Source: Bacteroidales bacterium (GTDB taxonomy: Bacteria > Bacteroidota > Bacteroidia > Bacteroidales > VadinHA17). From it: a stretch of DNA of 37,800 nt. Location: positions 1 through 37,800 of the forward strand of contig JARKQN010000068.1 in NCBI GenBank assembly GCA_029974835.1, written 5' to 3'. A model generated the notes under the pieces. It searched no databases. It had not been told where the DNA came from and saw only the letters and a program-made list of their open reading frames with translations. Of this stretch, positions 28,154 through 33,269 are shown piece by piece. Numbering within the stretch: position 1 is the first letter of the stretch; each line of letters opens with the position of its first letter. Made by a program: the position numbers and the translations under genes.

Positions 28154-28981
28154 TTATTTTTCTTCCTGAACGTCAATTATCTCAGTGCCCAGACGTGCCT
28201 TAAGGCGCTGGAGGTCATGTTTCATTCCTGCCACCGTCTGCAGCAGCTGCTTTTCCGGTATCAGAGGATCGGGAAGTTCGCTGCTGATGTAATTTACAAA
28301 CTTCCATATTTCCTTTACATTGTTAATATGAACCTCATACGGTTCGTAAAGCGGATTCAGAGAATATAGCACAAGCTTTCCGTCATCTTTAATGTGGTTT
28401 TCAACAACCTTAAACACGATGCCGTCGTCGAGGGTAAAGACAATATATGCCTTACCGCTGACAATAGTGCTCCAGTCCTGCAGGAATTCTCCTGTAACCC
28501 ATGAGCCGTCAGGAATCGGCAGCATTGAGTCGCCTTTCAGCTGAAAGGTTCTGTATTTCCTGTTTTCCGAAAGGAAAGGAAGCCAGAAAACAGGCAGTTC
28601 GCTGATGTATTCAGGATCGGCATAGCCGGTTGCGTAACCGGCCTTGGCCTTTTCATTTACGAGTTCAATATTCTCCCTGTTGCTGCTGTTCACGGTGGTT
28701 GCCAGCACTCGCAGGTTGCTTCCCCTGATATAGGCATCATAACCGCGTTCAAGTTCGCCAATCTGGCTTTCAGACAGCTTTGAAATATCGACTCTGAGAA
28801 GCGTATCGATCGACACGTTGAAATAGCCCGAAAAAGAGATCAGCGTCTCTATTCCCGGCTGTGCTATACCGTTTTCGTAGCCGCTCAGCGTTGAGCGCTT
28901 GAGATTGAGGGCAAAAGCCACATCATCCTGCGTCCGCCCCCTCCTCTTTCTTAAAATTTTTATGTTCTCTGCGAAATACAT
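28154..28981 (-). CDS. XRE-family regulator with LexA-like S24 autocleavage domain
   Basis: The 275-aa protein joins an N-terminal XRE helix-turn-helix (residues 5-62: LRKRRGRTQDDVAFALNLKR, STLSGYENGIAQPG) to a C-terminal S24 peptidase-like domain. A likely cleavage bond is Ala114-Gly115 in KAKAGYATGY, the nucleophile is Ser152 in GDSM and the general base is Lys191 in IVFKVV. The spacing bond-Ser 37 and Ser-Lys 39 is close to that of LexA (35 and 37). It ends in a charged helical tail (243-275). This suggests a repressor that cuts itself when activated by RecA-ssDNA. It diverges from the dinB-dnaE2-like operon, and an inverted repeat sits over its own promoter. A phage-type repressor origin is possible, but no phage genes are near. 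Confidence 0.88.
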   Translation of the reverse strand: MYFAENIKILRKRRGRTQDDVAFALNLKRSTLSGYENGIAQPGIETLISFSGYFNVSIDTLLRVDISKLSESQIGELERGYDAYIRGSNLRVLATTVNSSNRENIELVNEKAKAGYATGYADPEYISELPVFWLPFLSENRKYRTFQLKGDSMLPIPDGSWVTGEFLQDWSTIVSGKAYIVFTLDDGIVFKVVENHIKDDGKLVLYSLNPLYEPYEVHINNVKEIWKFVNYISSELPDPLIPEKQLLQTVAGMKHDLQRLKARLGTEIIDVQEEK

Positions 28982-29012
28982 ATTAAAAATATGATTATAT
29001 TATAGTCAGAAA

Positions 29013-29033
29013 TTTGATTAAAAACTAATCAAA
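29013..29033. promoter_or_regulatory. Candidate operator of the XRE-S24 regulator
   Basis: TTTGATTA (29013-29020) and TAATCAAA (29026-29033) form a perfect 8-bp inverted repeat with the five-base spacer AAAAC. It lies in the 93-base space between the divergent regulator and polymerase genes and overlaps the regulator's -7 box. It is the only long dyad I see in this space. Confidence 0.6.
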
Positions 29034-29061
29034 GATAAAACAGATTTTTTATATAAGCAAA
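29030..29061 (-). promoter_or_regulatory. Promoter of the XRE-S24 regulator gene
   Basis: On the minus strand, TTTG (29061-29058) and TATCTTTG (29037-29030) are separated by 20 bases and match the Bacteroidota consensus. The -7 box shares four bases with the inverted repeat, which predicts autorepression. Confidence 0.65.
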
Positions 29062-29074
29062 TATTTCAGGAAAA

Positions 29075-30331
29075 ATGATCTGGGAATCAGGAGTTGACAG
29101 GTCCGTTCTTCATCTCGATCTTGACACTTTCTTTGTGTCTGTTGAACGGCTCAGGAACAGCAGGCTCTGCGGTAAGCCTGTTATTGTAGGCAGCCTGTCG
29201 GATCGCGGTGTGGTGGCAAGCTGCAGCTATGAGGCAAGGAGGTATGGAGTCAGTTCGGCGATGCCCATGAAGCTGGCACGTAACCTGTGTCCGGATGCAA
29301 TAGTTATACGTGGCGACATGGAATTATACAGTAATTATTCCAGGATGGTGACCGACATAATTGCCGAAAAGGCACCGCTGTACGAAAAGGCCTCTATTGA
29401 TGAACATTATATTGATCTGACTGGCATGGACAGGTTTTTCGGGTGCAGCCGGTGGGCTCATGAACTGAGAAATTATATAATCAGGGAAACGGGACTCCCT
29501 GTTTCAATGGGGCTCTCCGTAAATAAGACGGTGTCGAAGATTGCCGCCGGGGAAGCAAAACCCAACGGAGAGATAGAGGTCGGAAAGTCTGTGGTTCACC
29601 CCTTTCTCGATCCCCTGTCAATAAAAAAGATTCCCATGATAGGCCAGAAAACATACCACCTGCTGAGGTCAATGGGGATATCAACCATCCTCACGTTAAG
29701 AAGCATTCCTCCGGGCATGCTTGAATCGCTGATGGGCAAAAACGGCATCGAAATATGGAAAAAGGCCAACGGCATCGACAATACCCCTGTAATAAGTTAT
29801 TCCGAGAGCAAATCGATAAGCACAGAACACACTTTTGAAAAAGACACCACGGATCTTCACCGTCTTAACCAGATACTTGCCGGAATGGTTGAGAAAATTG
29901 CCTACGAGATGAGAAAACAGGAAAAACTGGCATCATGCATAACCGTCAAGATACGATACTCAAATTATGATACTCATACCCTGCAGAAACATATTCCCTA
30001 TACCTCATTCGACCATGTACTGACAGGCGCCGCAAAGGAGCTTTTCGCCAGGCTGTACCAGCGCAGGATGCTTATAAGACTCATAGGTGTGCGACTCAGC
30101 GGCCTTGTCAACGGCGTTCAGCAGCTTGACATGTTTGACGACACCCCCGAGAAAGTAAATCTCTACATGGCCATAGACAGGATGAGAAAACGTTTCGGGC
30201 GCCATGCAGTGCAGAGAGCCTCCGGGGTTATGACAATACAGGAGAGGGAGGAAAAAGCCCTTAAAAGACTCGAAAATGCCGAAAATGAGCATAAAATGCT
30301 TGAAGAAAGGCTTAAAAGATACTGGTACTGA
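29075..30331 (+). CDS. Y-family DNA polymerase (DinB/ImuB-like, catalytic residues intact)
   Basis: This 418-aa translesion polymerase carries the first metal-binding motif and steric gate in HLDLDTFFVSVE, the fingers segment SCSYEARRYGVSSAMPM, and the catalytic acid pair in ASIDEHYIDL (usually SIDEAYLDL). The thumb helix-hairpin-helix is IKKIPMIGQKTYHLLRSMGI, and a little-finger domain follows. QLDMF near residue 350 fits the beta-clamp binding motif, and the C terminus is a charged coiled-coil segment (about 388-415). The intact acids argue against a non-catalytic ImuB. It diverges from the LexA-like gene and is followed one base after its stop codon by the DnaE2-like gene, so both are probably co-translated and damage-induced. 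Confidence 0.92.
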   Translation: MIWESGVDRSVLHLDLDTFFVSVERLRNSRLCGKPVIVGSLSDRGVVASCSYEARRYGVSSAMPMKLARNLCPDAIVIRGDMELYSNYSRMVTDIIAEKAPLYEKASIDEHYIDLTGMDRFFGCSRWAHELRNYIIRETGLPVSMGLSVNKTVSKIAAGEAKPNGEIEVGKSVVHPFLDPLSIKKIPMIGQKTYHLLRSMGISTILTLRSIPPGMLESLMGKNGIEIWKKANGIDNTPVISYSESKSISTEHTFEKDTTDLHRLNQILAGMVEKIAYEMRKQEKLASCITVKIRYSNYDTHTLQKHIPYTSFDHVLTGAAKELFARLYQRRMLIRLIGVRLSGLVNGVQQLDMFDDTPEKVNLYMAIDRMRKRFGRHAVQRASGVMTIQEREEKALKRLENAENEHKMLEERLKRYWY

Positions 30332-30332
30332 C

Positions 30333-33269
30333 ATGTTTCTCAACTGCCATTCATACTACAGCCTGCGCTACGGCACAATGAGCGTTGAACAACTCGTGGA
30401 AAAAGCCTCACAATACGGAGCAGATGCACTGGCACTTACCGATATAAACAATTCCACGGGAATGTTCGGATTTGCCGGAGAATGCATGAAAAAAAACATA
30501 AAACCCATCGCCGGAATCGAATTCAGAAAAGGCAACGAACTGCTTTATATCGGCATTGCTCGTAATAATGAAGGGTTCAGGGAACTGAACCAGTTTCTTT
30601 CAGACCATAACGCAAAAGGCACGGAACCTGACTTTCCTGCCCCACCCTTCCAGCATTCCCTGGTAATATACCCTCTCGACAGATACCCTGAACGCCAGCT
30701 GGCTGAAAACGAATTCATAGGCGTTAAACCATCCCAGGCAGGAAGACTGATCAGCCTCCCTCCTGCCCTGGTCCGTGAAAAAATGGTTGTTCTCAATACC
30801 GTAACATTCGCAGGAGACGGCGATTACTTTATTCACCGTAACCTCAGGGCAATAGACAACAATATCCTGCTGAGTCATCTCCGGCCATGGCAATGCGCAT
30901 CGGAAGATGAGCACTTCAGAACAGCAGACGAAATTAACGGCATATTCGGACTATACCCCTCAGTAACAGCCAATACAAGGAGGCTGATCGATGACTCCGT
31001 ATTTTCTGTTGATACCGACAGCTGCAAAAACAGGAAGATATTCTCTGCCAGCAGGTATGACGACAAACTGCTGCTGGAAAAACTGGCATGGGACGGCATG
31101 CTGTACAGATACGGCAAAAATAATGATGAGGCAAAAAGAAGGATCAGGCATGAGCTTGAAATAATCGACAATCTCGGATTCTCCGCCTACTTCCTTATTA
31201 CCTGGGACATTATCAGGTACTCAATGTCGAGAGGTTTTTATCATGTGGGACGCGGCAGCGGAGCAAATTCTATTGTTGCATATTGCCTTAAAATAACGAA
31301 CGTTGACCCCATCGACCTGAACCTTTACTTTGAGAGATTCATAAATCCTAAAAGAAGCAGTCCGCCCGATTTCGACATTGACTATTCGTGGAAAGAACGG
31401 GATGAAGTACTGGACTACATATTCAAAAGATACGGCTCGGGACATACGGCACTGCTCGGTACCATGAGCACTTTCAGGGGCAAGTCGGTTGTGAGGGAAC
31501 TGGGAAAGGTGCACGGATTGCCAAAAGATGAAATTGATGCCCTTATTGAGAACCCTTCTGCTTCGGTTAACAGGAACAGCGTTACAGAGACAATCTTTTC
31601 TGTCGGACAGAAAATAGTTGATTTTCCAAACCTGCGAAGTATACATGCCGGCGGGGTTCTGATATCGGACGAACCCATAACATGCTACACCGCACTCGAT
31701 ATGCCCCCCAAGGGCTTCCCCACAACACAATGGGATATGTACACCGCCGAGGAAATAGGTTTTGAGAAACTCGACATTCTGAGCCAGAGAGGCATCGGGC
31801 ATATACGCGACTGTGTTGAACTGATACAGCATAACAGGGGACAAAAGATTGATATTCATGATGTAGGTCGTTTCAAGGAAGATCCCGACGTAAAGAAATA
31901 CCTTCGAAACGGTGAAACGAAAGGATGTTTTTACATTGAGAGCCCTTCAATGCGCGGACTGCTTAAAAAACTCAGATGCAGCGATTACAGGACTCTTGTT
32001 GCGGCCAGCTCGGTGATAAGGCCCGGAGTGGCACGTTCGGGCATGATGAAAGAGTATATTTACCGTTTCCATAACCCCGGAAAATTTGCTTACCTGCACC
32101 CAGTTATGAAGGAACAGCTCGAAGAGACCTTCGGAGTGATGGTTTACCAGGAGGATGTGATAAAGGTGTGTCATCATTTCGCAGGCCTCGATCTCGCTGA
32201 TGCCGACACGCTGAGAAGAGCCATGAGCGGGAAATACAGATCAAAGCAGGAGATGCAGCGCATCACCGACAGGTTCTTCTCCAACTGCCGCGAGAGAGGT
32301 TACAGCGAGAATCTGATAAGGGAAGTGTGGCGACAGATAGAATCTTTTGCAGGGTACTCGTTCTCAAAGGCTCATTCAGCTTCTTACGCAGTAGAGAGCC
32401 TTCAGAGCCTGTTTCTTAAAGCACACTATCCTCTTGAATTCATGGTTGCGGTAATCAATAATTTCGGCGGGTTCTATCGTACATGGGTTTATGTACACGA
32501 GGCCGTAAGATACGGGGCCTCAGTAAAGCTGCCGTGCGTGAATAAAAGCACTTATCTTACCACCATTTATGACAAGGATATTTACCTCGGCTTTGTTCAT
32601 ATCATGAACCTGGAAGAGAAGCTGGCCCGCCGTATCGAGGAAGAGAGAATTGCAGCAGGGCCTTACTCCGACCTGAACGACTTTGTTAACCGGGTGAACC
32701 CCGGGCTCGAGCAGGTTATTATCCTTATAAGAACCGGAGCCTTCAGATTTACAGGTAAGCAAAAGCCCCTGCTTCTTTGGGAGGCCCACCTTCTGATAAA
32801 CAAAAGTAAGCCGGAGCCCTCAAAGCCTCTTTTTTTCTCAACCACAGGAGAAATAAAAATGCCCGAACTCGATCACAACAATCTCATTGATGCCTATGAT
32901 GAGGCAGAATTGCTTGGGTTTCCGGTGACTTTGTCCTGGTTCGACATGCTGGAGACATCCTTCAGGGGCCAGGTTATGGCTTCCGAACTGTTTCGTTGTA
33001 TCGGAAGCAGGGTAAGAATGGTTGGTCACCTGGTGACAATCAAATACATCATGACAATAAAAAAGGAAATGATGAATTTCGGGTGCTTCATTGATGCCCA
33101 AGGCGGGTTCTTCGATACAACCCATTTTCCCCAGTCACTTAAGTCATATCCTTTCAGAGGAAGCGGTACATACCTTATCCTCGGGAAAGTTGTTGAGGAA
33201 TTTGGTTACCCGTCTGTTGAGGTGGAAAAAATGGCAAAACTTCCCGTAAAGAAAGACCCCAGATATTGA
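30333..33269 (+). CDS. DnaE2-like error-prone DNA polymerase III alpha subunit
   Basis: The 978-aa protein is a C-family polymerase, shorter than replicative DnaE (about 1160 aa). Catalytic aspartates are in PPDFDIDY (Asp347, Asp349) and FEKLDILS (Asp481). The palm/fingers regions include YHVGRGSGANSIVAYCL, GVMVYQEDVIKV and AGYSFSKAHSASYAVES. The N-terminal PHP domain is degenerate: the usual HxH is Asn4-Cys-His6 (FLNCHSYYS) and the TDH motif is TDI (Asp37-Ile38), so it probably has no metal-dependent activity. I see no clear clamp-binding motif. The ATG at 30333 is used because it follows the dinB stop by one base and begins the PHP domain directly. It likely extends from lesions together with the upstream Y-family polymerase. 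Confidence 0.9.
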   Translation: MFLNCHSYYSLRYGTMSVEQLVEKASQYGADALALTDINNSTGMFGFAGECMKKNIKPIAGIEFRKGNELLYIGIARNNEGFRELNQFLSDHNAKGTEPDFPAPPFQHSLVIYPLDRYPERQLAENEFIGVKPSQAGRLISLPPALVREKMVVLNTVTFAGDGDYFIHRNLRAIDNNILLSHLRPWQCASEDEHFRTADEINGIFGLYPSVTANTRRLIDDSVFSVDTDSCKNRKIFSASRYDDKLLLEKLAWDGMLYRYGKNNDEAKRRIRHELEIIDNLGFSAYFLITWDIIRYSMSRGFYHVGRGSGANSIVAYCLKITNVDPIDLNLYFERFINPKRSSPPDFDIDYSWKERDEVLDYIFKRYGSGHTALLGTMSTFRGKSVVRELGKVHGLPKDEIDALIENPSASVNRNSVTETIFSVGQKIVDFPNLRSIHAGGVLISDEPITCYTALDMPPKGFPTTQWDMYTAEEIGFEKLDILSQRGIGHIRDCVELIQHNRGQKIDIHDVGRFKEDPDVKKYLRNGETKGCFYIESPSMRGLLKKLRCSDYRTLVAASSVIRPGVARSGMMKEYIYRFHNPGKFAYLHPVMKEQLEETFGVMVYQEDVIKVCHHFAGLDLADADTLRRAMSGKYRSKQEMQRITDRFFSNCRERGYSENLIREVWRQIESFAGYSFSKAHSASYAVESLQSLFLKAHYPLEFMVAVINNFGGFYRTWVYVHEAVRYGASVKLPCVNKSTYLTTIYDKDIYLGFVHIMNLEEKLARRIEEERIAAGPYSDLNDFVNRVNPGLEQVIILIRTGAFRFTGKQKPLLLWEAHLLINKSKPEPSKPLFFSTTGEIKMPELDHNNLIDAYDEAELLGFPVTLSWFDMLETSFRGQVMASELFRCIGSRVRMVGHLVTIKYIMTIKKEMMNFGCFIDAQGGFFDTTHFPQSLKSYPFRGSGTYLILGKVVEEFGYPSVEVEKMAKLPVKKDPRY

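Follow-up and report, generated by a model that had tools for sequence, protein, structure and literature searches.

A 37,800-nucleotide stretch of DNA from an uncultured Bacteroidales bacterium (assembly GCA_029974835.1, contig JARKQN010000068.1, positions 1 to 37,800; hereafter the window) carries a three-gene unit, very probably a minimal SOS module that regulates itself through a non-canonical LexA and has an operator class of its own. The unit comprises an XRE-S24 repressor gene on the reverse strand, a divergent Y-family polymerase (PolY) gene on the forward strand, and a DnaE-type polymerase gene that follows it (Table 1). The source is a 2.9-Mb metagenome-assembled genome (MAG), 92% complete, of which the window is one contig (C97); it contains one PolY, the sole IMS-domain match, and two DnaE genes. 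CI-like S24 regulators have been identified as SOS repressors of Bacteroidetes from binding and induction data (Sanchez-Osuna et al. 2021, PMC8565304). The original prediction, made from the window sequence, described a locally regulated, damage-induced translesion unit. This idea is well supported, and it is firmer because of a twin operator in the shared promoter and the recurrence of that operator at other SOS-type genes.

The gap between the regulator and PolY genes is 93 base pairs (bp) long and holds two 17-bp dyads 23 bp apart, so that the consensus TGATTA-N5-TAATCA is present twice. Relatives were collected by a profile scan of genomes, and the best 80 of at least 561 regulator relatives were retained as an 80-locus set. 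All 80 come from MAGs within Bacteroidota (48 labelled Bacteroidales, one Sphingobacteriia, and the rest carrying wider or other Bacteroidota names), and their regulators are 61–87% identical to that of the window. This set overlaps in part with the genome sets used below, and counts from the two were not added together. A pair of dyads was visible by eye in all 25 regulator-PolY gaps inspected (the window and 24 loci). Scored at ≥20/24 arm positions, the twin was present in 56 of the 75 upstream regions with at least 150 bp available vs. 1 of 3750 dinucleotide shuffles, and the spacing was 23 bp in 50 cases and 24 bp in 6. At ≥19/24 positions, 52 of 57 whole regulator-PolY gaps contained the twin; five pairs lying outside the 450-bp upstream regions were found farther upstream. 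Conservation of the polymerase-proximal dyad equals or exceeds that of the regulator-proximal one. The inner bases of the latter are nearly fixed (AATA at positions 8–11, 89–98%), and its positions 10–15 read TATAAT, so this dyad probably overlaps the promoter of the regulator itself.

Genome-wide searches for the twin (up to three mismatches) returned one site in 22, two in 2, and none in 1 of 25 congeneric genomes, and the backward control gave 0 in all 25. In 23 of these genomes, the twin sits at the regulator. It was also present in 4 of 16 genomes from other families, one of the 16 giving a control match. In the window genome, the twin marks this promoter only, and the exact dyads are limited to operator 2 and one within a coding region.

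The gene order claimed originally is conserved above chance. A divergent PolY gene lies within 1 kb of the regulator in 57 of 63 loci of the 80-locus set with at least 1.7 kb of upstream sequence. Where PolY is present and the upstream sequence reaches 4.9 kb or more (47 loci), the DnaE gene is next in 39, farther away in 5, and missing from the available sequence in 3. The tight coupling of the two polymerase genes proposed earlier holds at this locus, where the DnaE start common to relatives (30333) falls one base after the PolY stop (TGA, 30329–30331), but it is not universal, the gap ranging from −11 bp to 522 bp in the 39 loci. One could suppose that the regulator controls only itself, with the polymerases effectively constitutive and the divergent layout incidental. 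In some relatives, the operators can be hundreds of bases away from the start of the regulator, and in others the PolY side of the gap contains inserted DNA; both findings would fit this arrangement. It is nevertheless highly improbable, given that the layout and both dyads persist among regulators as little as 61% (and up to 87%) identical to the window's, that the polymerase-proximal dyad is no less conserved than its partner, that a perfect dyad accompanies 4 of 7 DnaE genes separated from PolY, and that induction was strongest for error-prone polymerases in two relatives (PMC8565304).

These separated DnaE genes offer a view of the operator away from the shared promoter. Four of the seven have their own 12/12 dyad within ~520 bp upstream, where an exact dyad is expected in ~2 of 10,000 stretches of 700 bp, from the off-cassette rate of 18 in ~61 Mb. 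In L139 and L144, the 12/12 dyads are 29 and 44 bp from the gene and a second dyad (11/12 and 10/12, respectively) stands exactly 23 bp beyond the first; in L059, the 12/12 dyad is at 500 bp and the second, 23 bp from it, is weaker (9/12); L165 has a single 12/12 dyad at 25 bp. The regulator-PolY gap of L139 itself holds weak half-matches only.

The sole recurring gene at off-cassette exact dyads encodes a uracil-DNA glycosylase (UDG)-linked radical SAM protein (TIGR03916, 619 bits), which we take to be COG4277. It occurs in 3 of 36 genomes of the genus. All three copies have a 12/12 dyad within 50 bp of the start, and for two copies a weaker half-match (9/12) is present as well, again 23 bp off. 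In three carriers from other families whose genomes were established as lacking the cassette DnaE, rather than as lacking the regulator (G047, G050, and G054), the best site was ≤9/12 in every case. The single twin of G002 and the second twin of G015 sit at the radical SAM gene. In one further genome (G045), a twin operator lies between a regulator of the same family and a divergent SRAP gene. The word self-contained in the original prediction therefore applies to the window genome, within the limits of a 92% complete assembly, but not to some relatives, which place more SOS-type genes under the same operator. No match to the UDG-linked radical SAM gene was found in the window genome. It has 17 off-cassette sites with at most one mismatch; 8 of the 13 examined lie within genes, and none of the 13 is at a recognizable SOS-type gene. 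As a separate observation, a gene of G013 that is similar to the DUF2461 gene of the window has an exact single dyad (L325 1501–1517) upstream of it, at 131 bp. That site is ~4 kb from the cassette, and at this place the window lacks a dyad with up to one mismatch.

The operator sequence tracks the recognition helix of the regulator. The comparison drew on 149 regulators. These were the window's, those of the 80-locus set and of 4 plasmid loci, and 64 from the phylum sample, in which 86 matches lie outside the window genome and 22 of them were omitted (the weakest 21 and one close to the end of a contig). Two with a missing N terminus were dropped to leave 147. Sites were scored within 300 bp, TGATTA-N5-TAATCA being called at ≥11/12. 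Regulators with SGYEN-type helices (including a few NGYEN or NNYEN) had TGATTA-N5-TAATCA in 59 of 79 cases, CTAA-N5-TTAG in 0/79, and GGA-N5-TCC in 1/79, and those with GxYEE helices had CTAA-N5-TTAG in 18 of 24 and TGATTA in 1/24. The remaining 44 regulators showed TGATTA once and CTAA once. A distant SGYEN member (L316, at the L170 locus), only 46% identical, also has an 11/12 TGATTA site. Members of each class fall largely in a single clade, so the link is a correlation that rests on few independent changes. GGA-N5-TCC and TTAC-N5-GTAA were also tried as class markers and were rejected (each 3/147, not reproduced), so the comparison turns on CTAA only. The regulator tree sets these proteins beside homologs that carry CTAA and belong to other families of the class; it does not include the published proteins themselves.

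The regulator has HTH_3 (residues 7–61) and Peptidase_S24 (residues 111–222) Pfam domains, and the Ala-Gly bond and Ser/Lys dyad anticipated by the original prediction were located at A114–G115, S152, and K191. In alignments, Ala-Gly, Ser, and Lys are all kept in the 79 SGYEN-class regulators, and Ser and Lys are each kept in all 147. An AlphaFold2 model (mean predicted local distance difference test score 73.5; predicted template modeling score [pTM] 0.46; linker <50) shows a helical domain at the N terminus and an S24-type domain, with a further helix (residues 243–272) at the C terminus. Fold searches with the whole length returned the lambda-186 and 186 repressors and LexA, all at low TM-scores; the C-terminal domain fits LexA at 2.1–2.7 Å over ~95 columns, and the helix-turn-helix (HTH) domain recovered SinR, P22 C2, and DdrO. 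DdrO is acted on by a dedicated protease. A repressor that senses some signal other than RecA–single-stranded DNA (ssDNA), for example through a protease of this kind, with polymerases serving another stress, would accommodate the DdrO match at the HTH and the absence of the Ala-Gly pair from 14 of the 44 mixed-class related regulators. We consider this very unlikely for the SGYEN class, with its invariant Ala-Gly, Ser, and Lys (79/79) and its LexA-like C-terminal domain. The 14 mixed-class proteins (L171–L174, L194, L279, L284, L289, L290, L292, L293, L300, L315, and L318), from other Bacteroidota, retain Ser and Lys and replace Ala-Gly with Ala-Ser (4), Met-Gly (9), or Gly-Gly (1). Some of them adjoin PolY-DnaE genes, and they may be non-cleavable or cleaved differently.

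Within the window genome, the repressor is the only match to the family profile at E ≤ 1e-20. A second XRE-S24 protein was sought and rejected; the other S24 match is a signal-peptidase-like open reading frame (ORF) in an export cluster, as judged by reading. The LexA winged helix (PF01726) was absent from all 33 genomes searched with a model that matches the E. coli, B. subtilis, and Caulobacter proteins, and a LexA-type regulator elsewhere in the window genome was rejected on the same model. The ImuA model (E ≤ 0.001) matched only RecA (40–52 bits) in 32 of the 33 genomes; the remaining one gave no match. Proteins in the ImuA position of three imuA-imuB-dnaE2 loci scored 48–65 bits, under the model's 150-bit cut-off. 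The argument on ImuA therefore depends on there being no second match, and the earlier statement that imuA is missing near the locus can be extended to the genome, whose sole ImuA-model match is RecA itself. For ImuB, the single IMS protein of the genome is the active PolY; no ImuB-specific model was searched.

The locus is common in uncultured Bacteroidales, an order from which both groups of such regulators were reported absent (PMC8565304). With cassette DnaE counted at ≥55% identity, a substantial match was present in at least 31 of 36 congeneric genomes, including that of the window; one genome had a short fragment, and four had a DnaE1-like protein as the best match among the matches listed. 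It also occurred in at least 8 of 24 genomes from other families of the order. Regulator, PolY, and DnaE were found together in 24 of 40 stretches examined, and a related regulator (E ≤ 1e-20) in 62 of 296 genomes of a phylum sample that includes the window genome. Chryseobacterium and Emticicia plasmids have the same three-gene layout. On a Dyadobacter plasmid (L277), a related regulator is divergent from imuA-imuB-dnaE2, and therefore one repressor type seems to serve both kinds of mutasome. In L147 (5347–6798), a regulator with a twin operator is divergent from a PLD-domain gene in place of PolY.

Regulators of this kind are thought to be of phage origin (PMC8565304), and the HTH domain resembles those of phage repressors; both would suit a leftover or resident prophage repressor lying by chance beside chromosomal polymerase genes. 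This is extremely improbable. A scan of 14 window proteins revealed none of phage-borne appearance, ytfJ-like and relA/spoT genes flank the cassette in most congeneric stretches with enough flanking sequence, and the operators are found at polymerase and repair genes. Of phage records, 12 matched, none covering >52% of the query, and a phage origin of the locus was rejected on these partial matches.

Both polymerases retain their catalytic residues. The claim that the Y-family partner keeps its catalytic acids was upheld: LDLDTFF and SIDEHY are present in the window protein, SIDE (D109 and E110) is retained in 8/8 aligned relatives, and LDLD (D17) in 7/8, the eighth row ending before the motif. 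The tail of PolY contains QLDMF, which we take to be of the beta-clamp-binding motif type, followed by a segment resembling the N terminus of RecA (RecA-NT). Against a RecA N-terminus profile built from 24 usable of 30 recA loci, this segment scored 21.3; 29 control windows scored ≤11.6 and a thirtieth, which overlaps the motif, 18.9. For the DnaE-type gene, the ORF list offers an upstream ATG at 30276, and relatives share the start at 30333. All 8 rows share PDFDID and the third Asp (D481), and a simple scan of the protein found no clamp motif like QADMF of E. coli DnaE1. In a tree of 25 cassette DnaE proteins, 2 DnaE1s, and 3 ImuAB-linked DnaE2s, the cassette group was separated from the others with a support of 100. 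The tree contains no DnaE2B reference; having no outgroup either, it does not place the cassette DnaE closer to DnaE1 or to DnaE2A.

We infer a sequence of binding, repression, RecA-dependent cleavage, induction, polymerase complex formation, and mutagenesis as follows. As long as the cells are undamaged, the CI-like S24 repressor would sit as dimers on the two 17-bp operators in the divergent gap, silencing both its own promoter and that of dinB-dnaE2. After damage, RecA-ssDNA filaments would stimulate self-cleavage of the repressor at Ala114–Gly115 via Ser152 and Lys191; the cleaved protein would leave the operators, and both polymerases would be made. PolY would then bind the sliding clamp through QLDMF and RecA through its RecA-NT-like tail, and would cooperate with the DnaE2B-type polymerase in lesion bypass, RecA replacing ImuA.

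Several results weigh against an SOS module of this form. The repressor fold model is weak overall (pTM 0.46). Six of the 63 loci lack a divergent PolY, their regulators adjoining various other genes, and 5 of the 57 gaps lack the twin (three have one partial dyad and two have weak half-matches). Three of the seven separated DnaE genes have no good site (L166, 9/12; L146, ≤9; L064, ≤8). The RecA-NT similarity of PolY is modest (profile probability 33.6%), and a pairwise test for this motif found nothing. Upstream of recA, no site of ≥11/12 was found in 30 recA loci (best 10/12, in three), and therefore the regulon is without a classical member; recA was rejected as a target, an exact dyad inside recA in G007 not being counted. 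The 43 exact dyads of 15 congeneric genomes divide into 25 at the cassette and 18 elsewhere vs. 3 backward controls; all 18 were inspected, and most of them are within or at unrelated genes. On an Adhaeribacter plasmid (L274 3000–7970), SRAP, dinB, and dnaE genes stand in a row, the DnaE being 60% identical to that of the window; no such regulator is in view there, and the SRAP site is ≤8/12.

A more specific proposal stands at about an even chance: that these regulators are a third specificity class of non-canonical LexA in Bacteroidales, in which lambdoid-like paired operators would seat cooperative paired dimers, giving a sharp mutagenesis switch, a small regulon, and a readable helix code. 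The two 17-bp sites have a 6- or 7-bp gap and centers 23–24 bp apart, and two sites 23–24 bp apart on one helix face is the spacing of lambda OR. Under this proposal, the regulon would comprise the polymerase pair, plus the UDG-linked radical SAM and SRAP genes in some species, and the code would have SGYEN reading TGATTA and GxYEE reading CTAA.

Table 1. Features of the repressor-polymerase unit, in window coordinates
Feature	Position	Strand	Basis
XRE-S24 repressor, non-canonical LexA type, 275 aa	28154..28981	-	Pfam HTH_3 + Peptidase_S24
Recognition helix RSTLSGYEN, residues 29–37	28871..28897	-	AlphaFold2 helix 29–36; helix class tracks operator type
Putative scissile bond Ala114-Gly115	28637..28642	-	A+G in 79/79 SGYEN-class homologs
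Catalytic Ser152	28526..28528	-	Ser in 147/147 aligned homologs
Catalytic Lys191	28409..28411	-	Lys in 147/147 aligned homologs
Predicted operator 1, regulator-proximal dyad TGATTATATTATAGTCA	28992..29008	.	11/12 arm positions; kept in relatives
Predicted operator 2, polymerase-proximal dyad TGATTAAAAACTAATCA	29015..29031	.	12/12 arm positions; kept in relatives
Y-family polymerase (DinB/PolY2-like), 418 aa, intact catalytic acids	29075..30331	+	IMS/IMS_C; Pol IV models
Beta-clamp-binding-like motif QLDMF, residues 350–354	30122..30136	+	QQ(L/I)x(M/L)F across aligned relatives
RecA-NT-like motif, residues 358–381	30146..30217	+	Profile match to RecA N termini
DnaE-type polymerase (DnaE2B-like), 978 aa, intact catalytic Asp triad	30333..33269	+	DNA_pol3_alpha, finger, HHH_6, PHP

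Two other features of the regulator-PolY gap were noted by eye. Many gaps share a further near-palindromic element past operator 2 (window 29040–29070), roughly TTGTTATATAAACAA, which is perhaps part of the dinB promoter. In congeneric genomes, the gaps of L035, L046, L047, and L065 contain a small ORF between the operators and the PolY start, accompanied in some of them by short GAGTGACTAAAG-like repeats; its product presumably resembles four-helix-bundle (intervening-sequence-type) proteins.

These observations fill a gap in the map of the SOS response, in that many uncultured Bacteroidales appear to have such a regulator, with a different binding site. The tie between recognition helix and operator can be tested, and the unit is a candidate for a minimal SOS regulon with inducible mutagenesis at its core.

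The regulator resembles the non-canonical LexA proteins of Bacteroidetes (PMC8565304) in its CI-like HTH and S24 domains, Ala-Gly bond, Ser-Lys pair, and extra C-terminal helix, and in having an N5-spaced palindrome in its own promoter; in those systems, autoregulation operates through such palindromes. Induction and motif-specific binding were measured there for relatives, including the Elizabethkingia regulator and its divergent error-prone polymerase gene, an arrangement shared by the window locus. Published targets also seen here are dinB together with a gene for pol III alpha, the COG4277-COG1573 pair, and SRAP (COG2135). The regulators differ in the operator arm (TGATTA here; GGA or CTAA there, with TTAC in Elizabethkingia), the twin sites at a fixed 23-bp pitch, the Bacteroidales host, and the lack of a site at recA. 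The two published motifs mark the published clusters rather than the family, which includes a TTAC-N5-GTAA member (PMC8565304). In the open-access literature available, with subscription papers and preprints outside its scope, no other paper on a Bacteroidales regulator or a TGATTA operator was found, judging by abstracts and listings. HdiR and UmuDAb are likewise non-LexA S24 regulators of small error-prone-polymerase regulons; they belong to other lineages and origins, and were compared by description rather than by sequence (PMC8565304).

The polymerase pair invites comparison with two known modules. Like the ImuA-ImuB-DnaE2 mutasome, it sets a Y-family protein and a DnaE2-type polymerase behind an S24 repressor; unlike it, no ImuA was found, the Y-family acids are intact, and the DnaE falls in a separate group. 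An active PolY and DnaE2B pair, with RecA as a likely partner, has been described in Bacteroidetes (PMC6511836 and PMC12926913). The window locus shares with that DnaE2B-PolY-RecA module an active PolY with a RecA-NT-like tail, an adjoining DnaE2-type gene, and the failure to find ImuA, and no difference from it was established, DnaE2B references being absent from the tree. The departures from the LexA-controlled mutasome that the original prediction emphasized (an XRE domain in place of that of LexA, no imuA, and an active Y-family partner) are thus real, but they are the condition already published for Bacteroidetes (PMC8565304, PMC6511836, and PMC12926913). With respect to the cited papers, the types of regulator and polymerase module are known, and what is new is their occurrence in Bacteroidales, the TGATTA twin operator, the link between helix and operator, and the recurrence of the operator at other genes.

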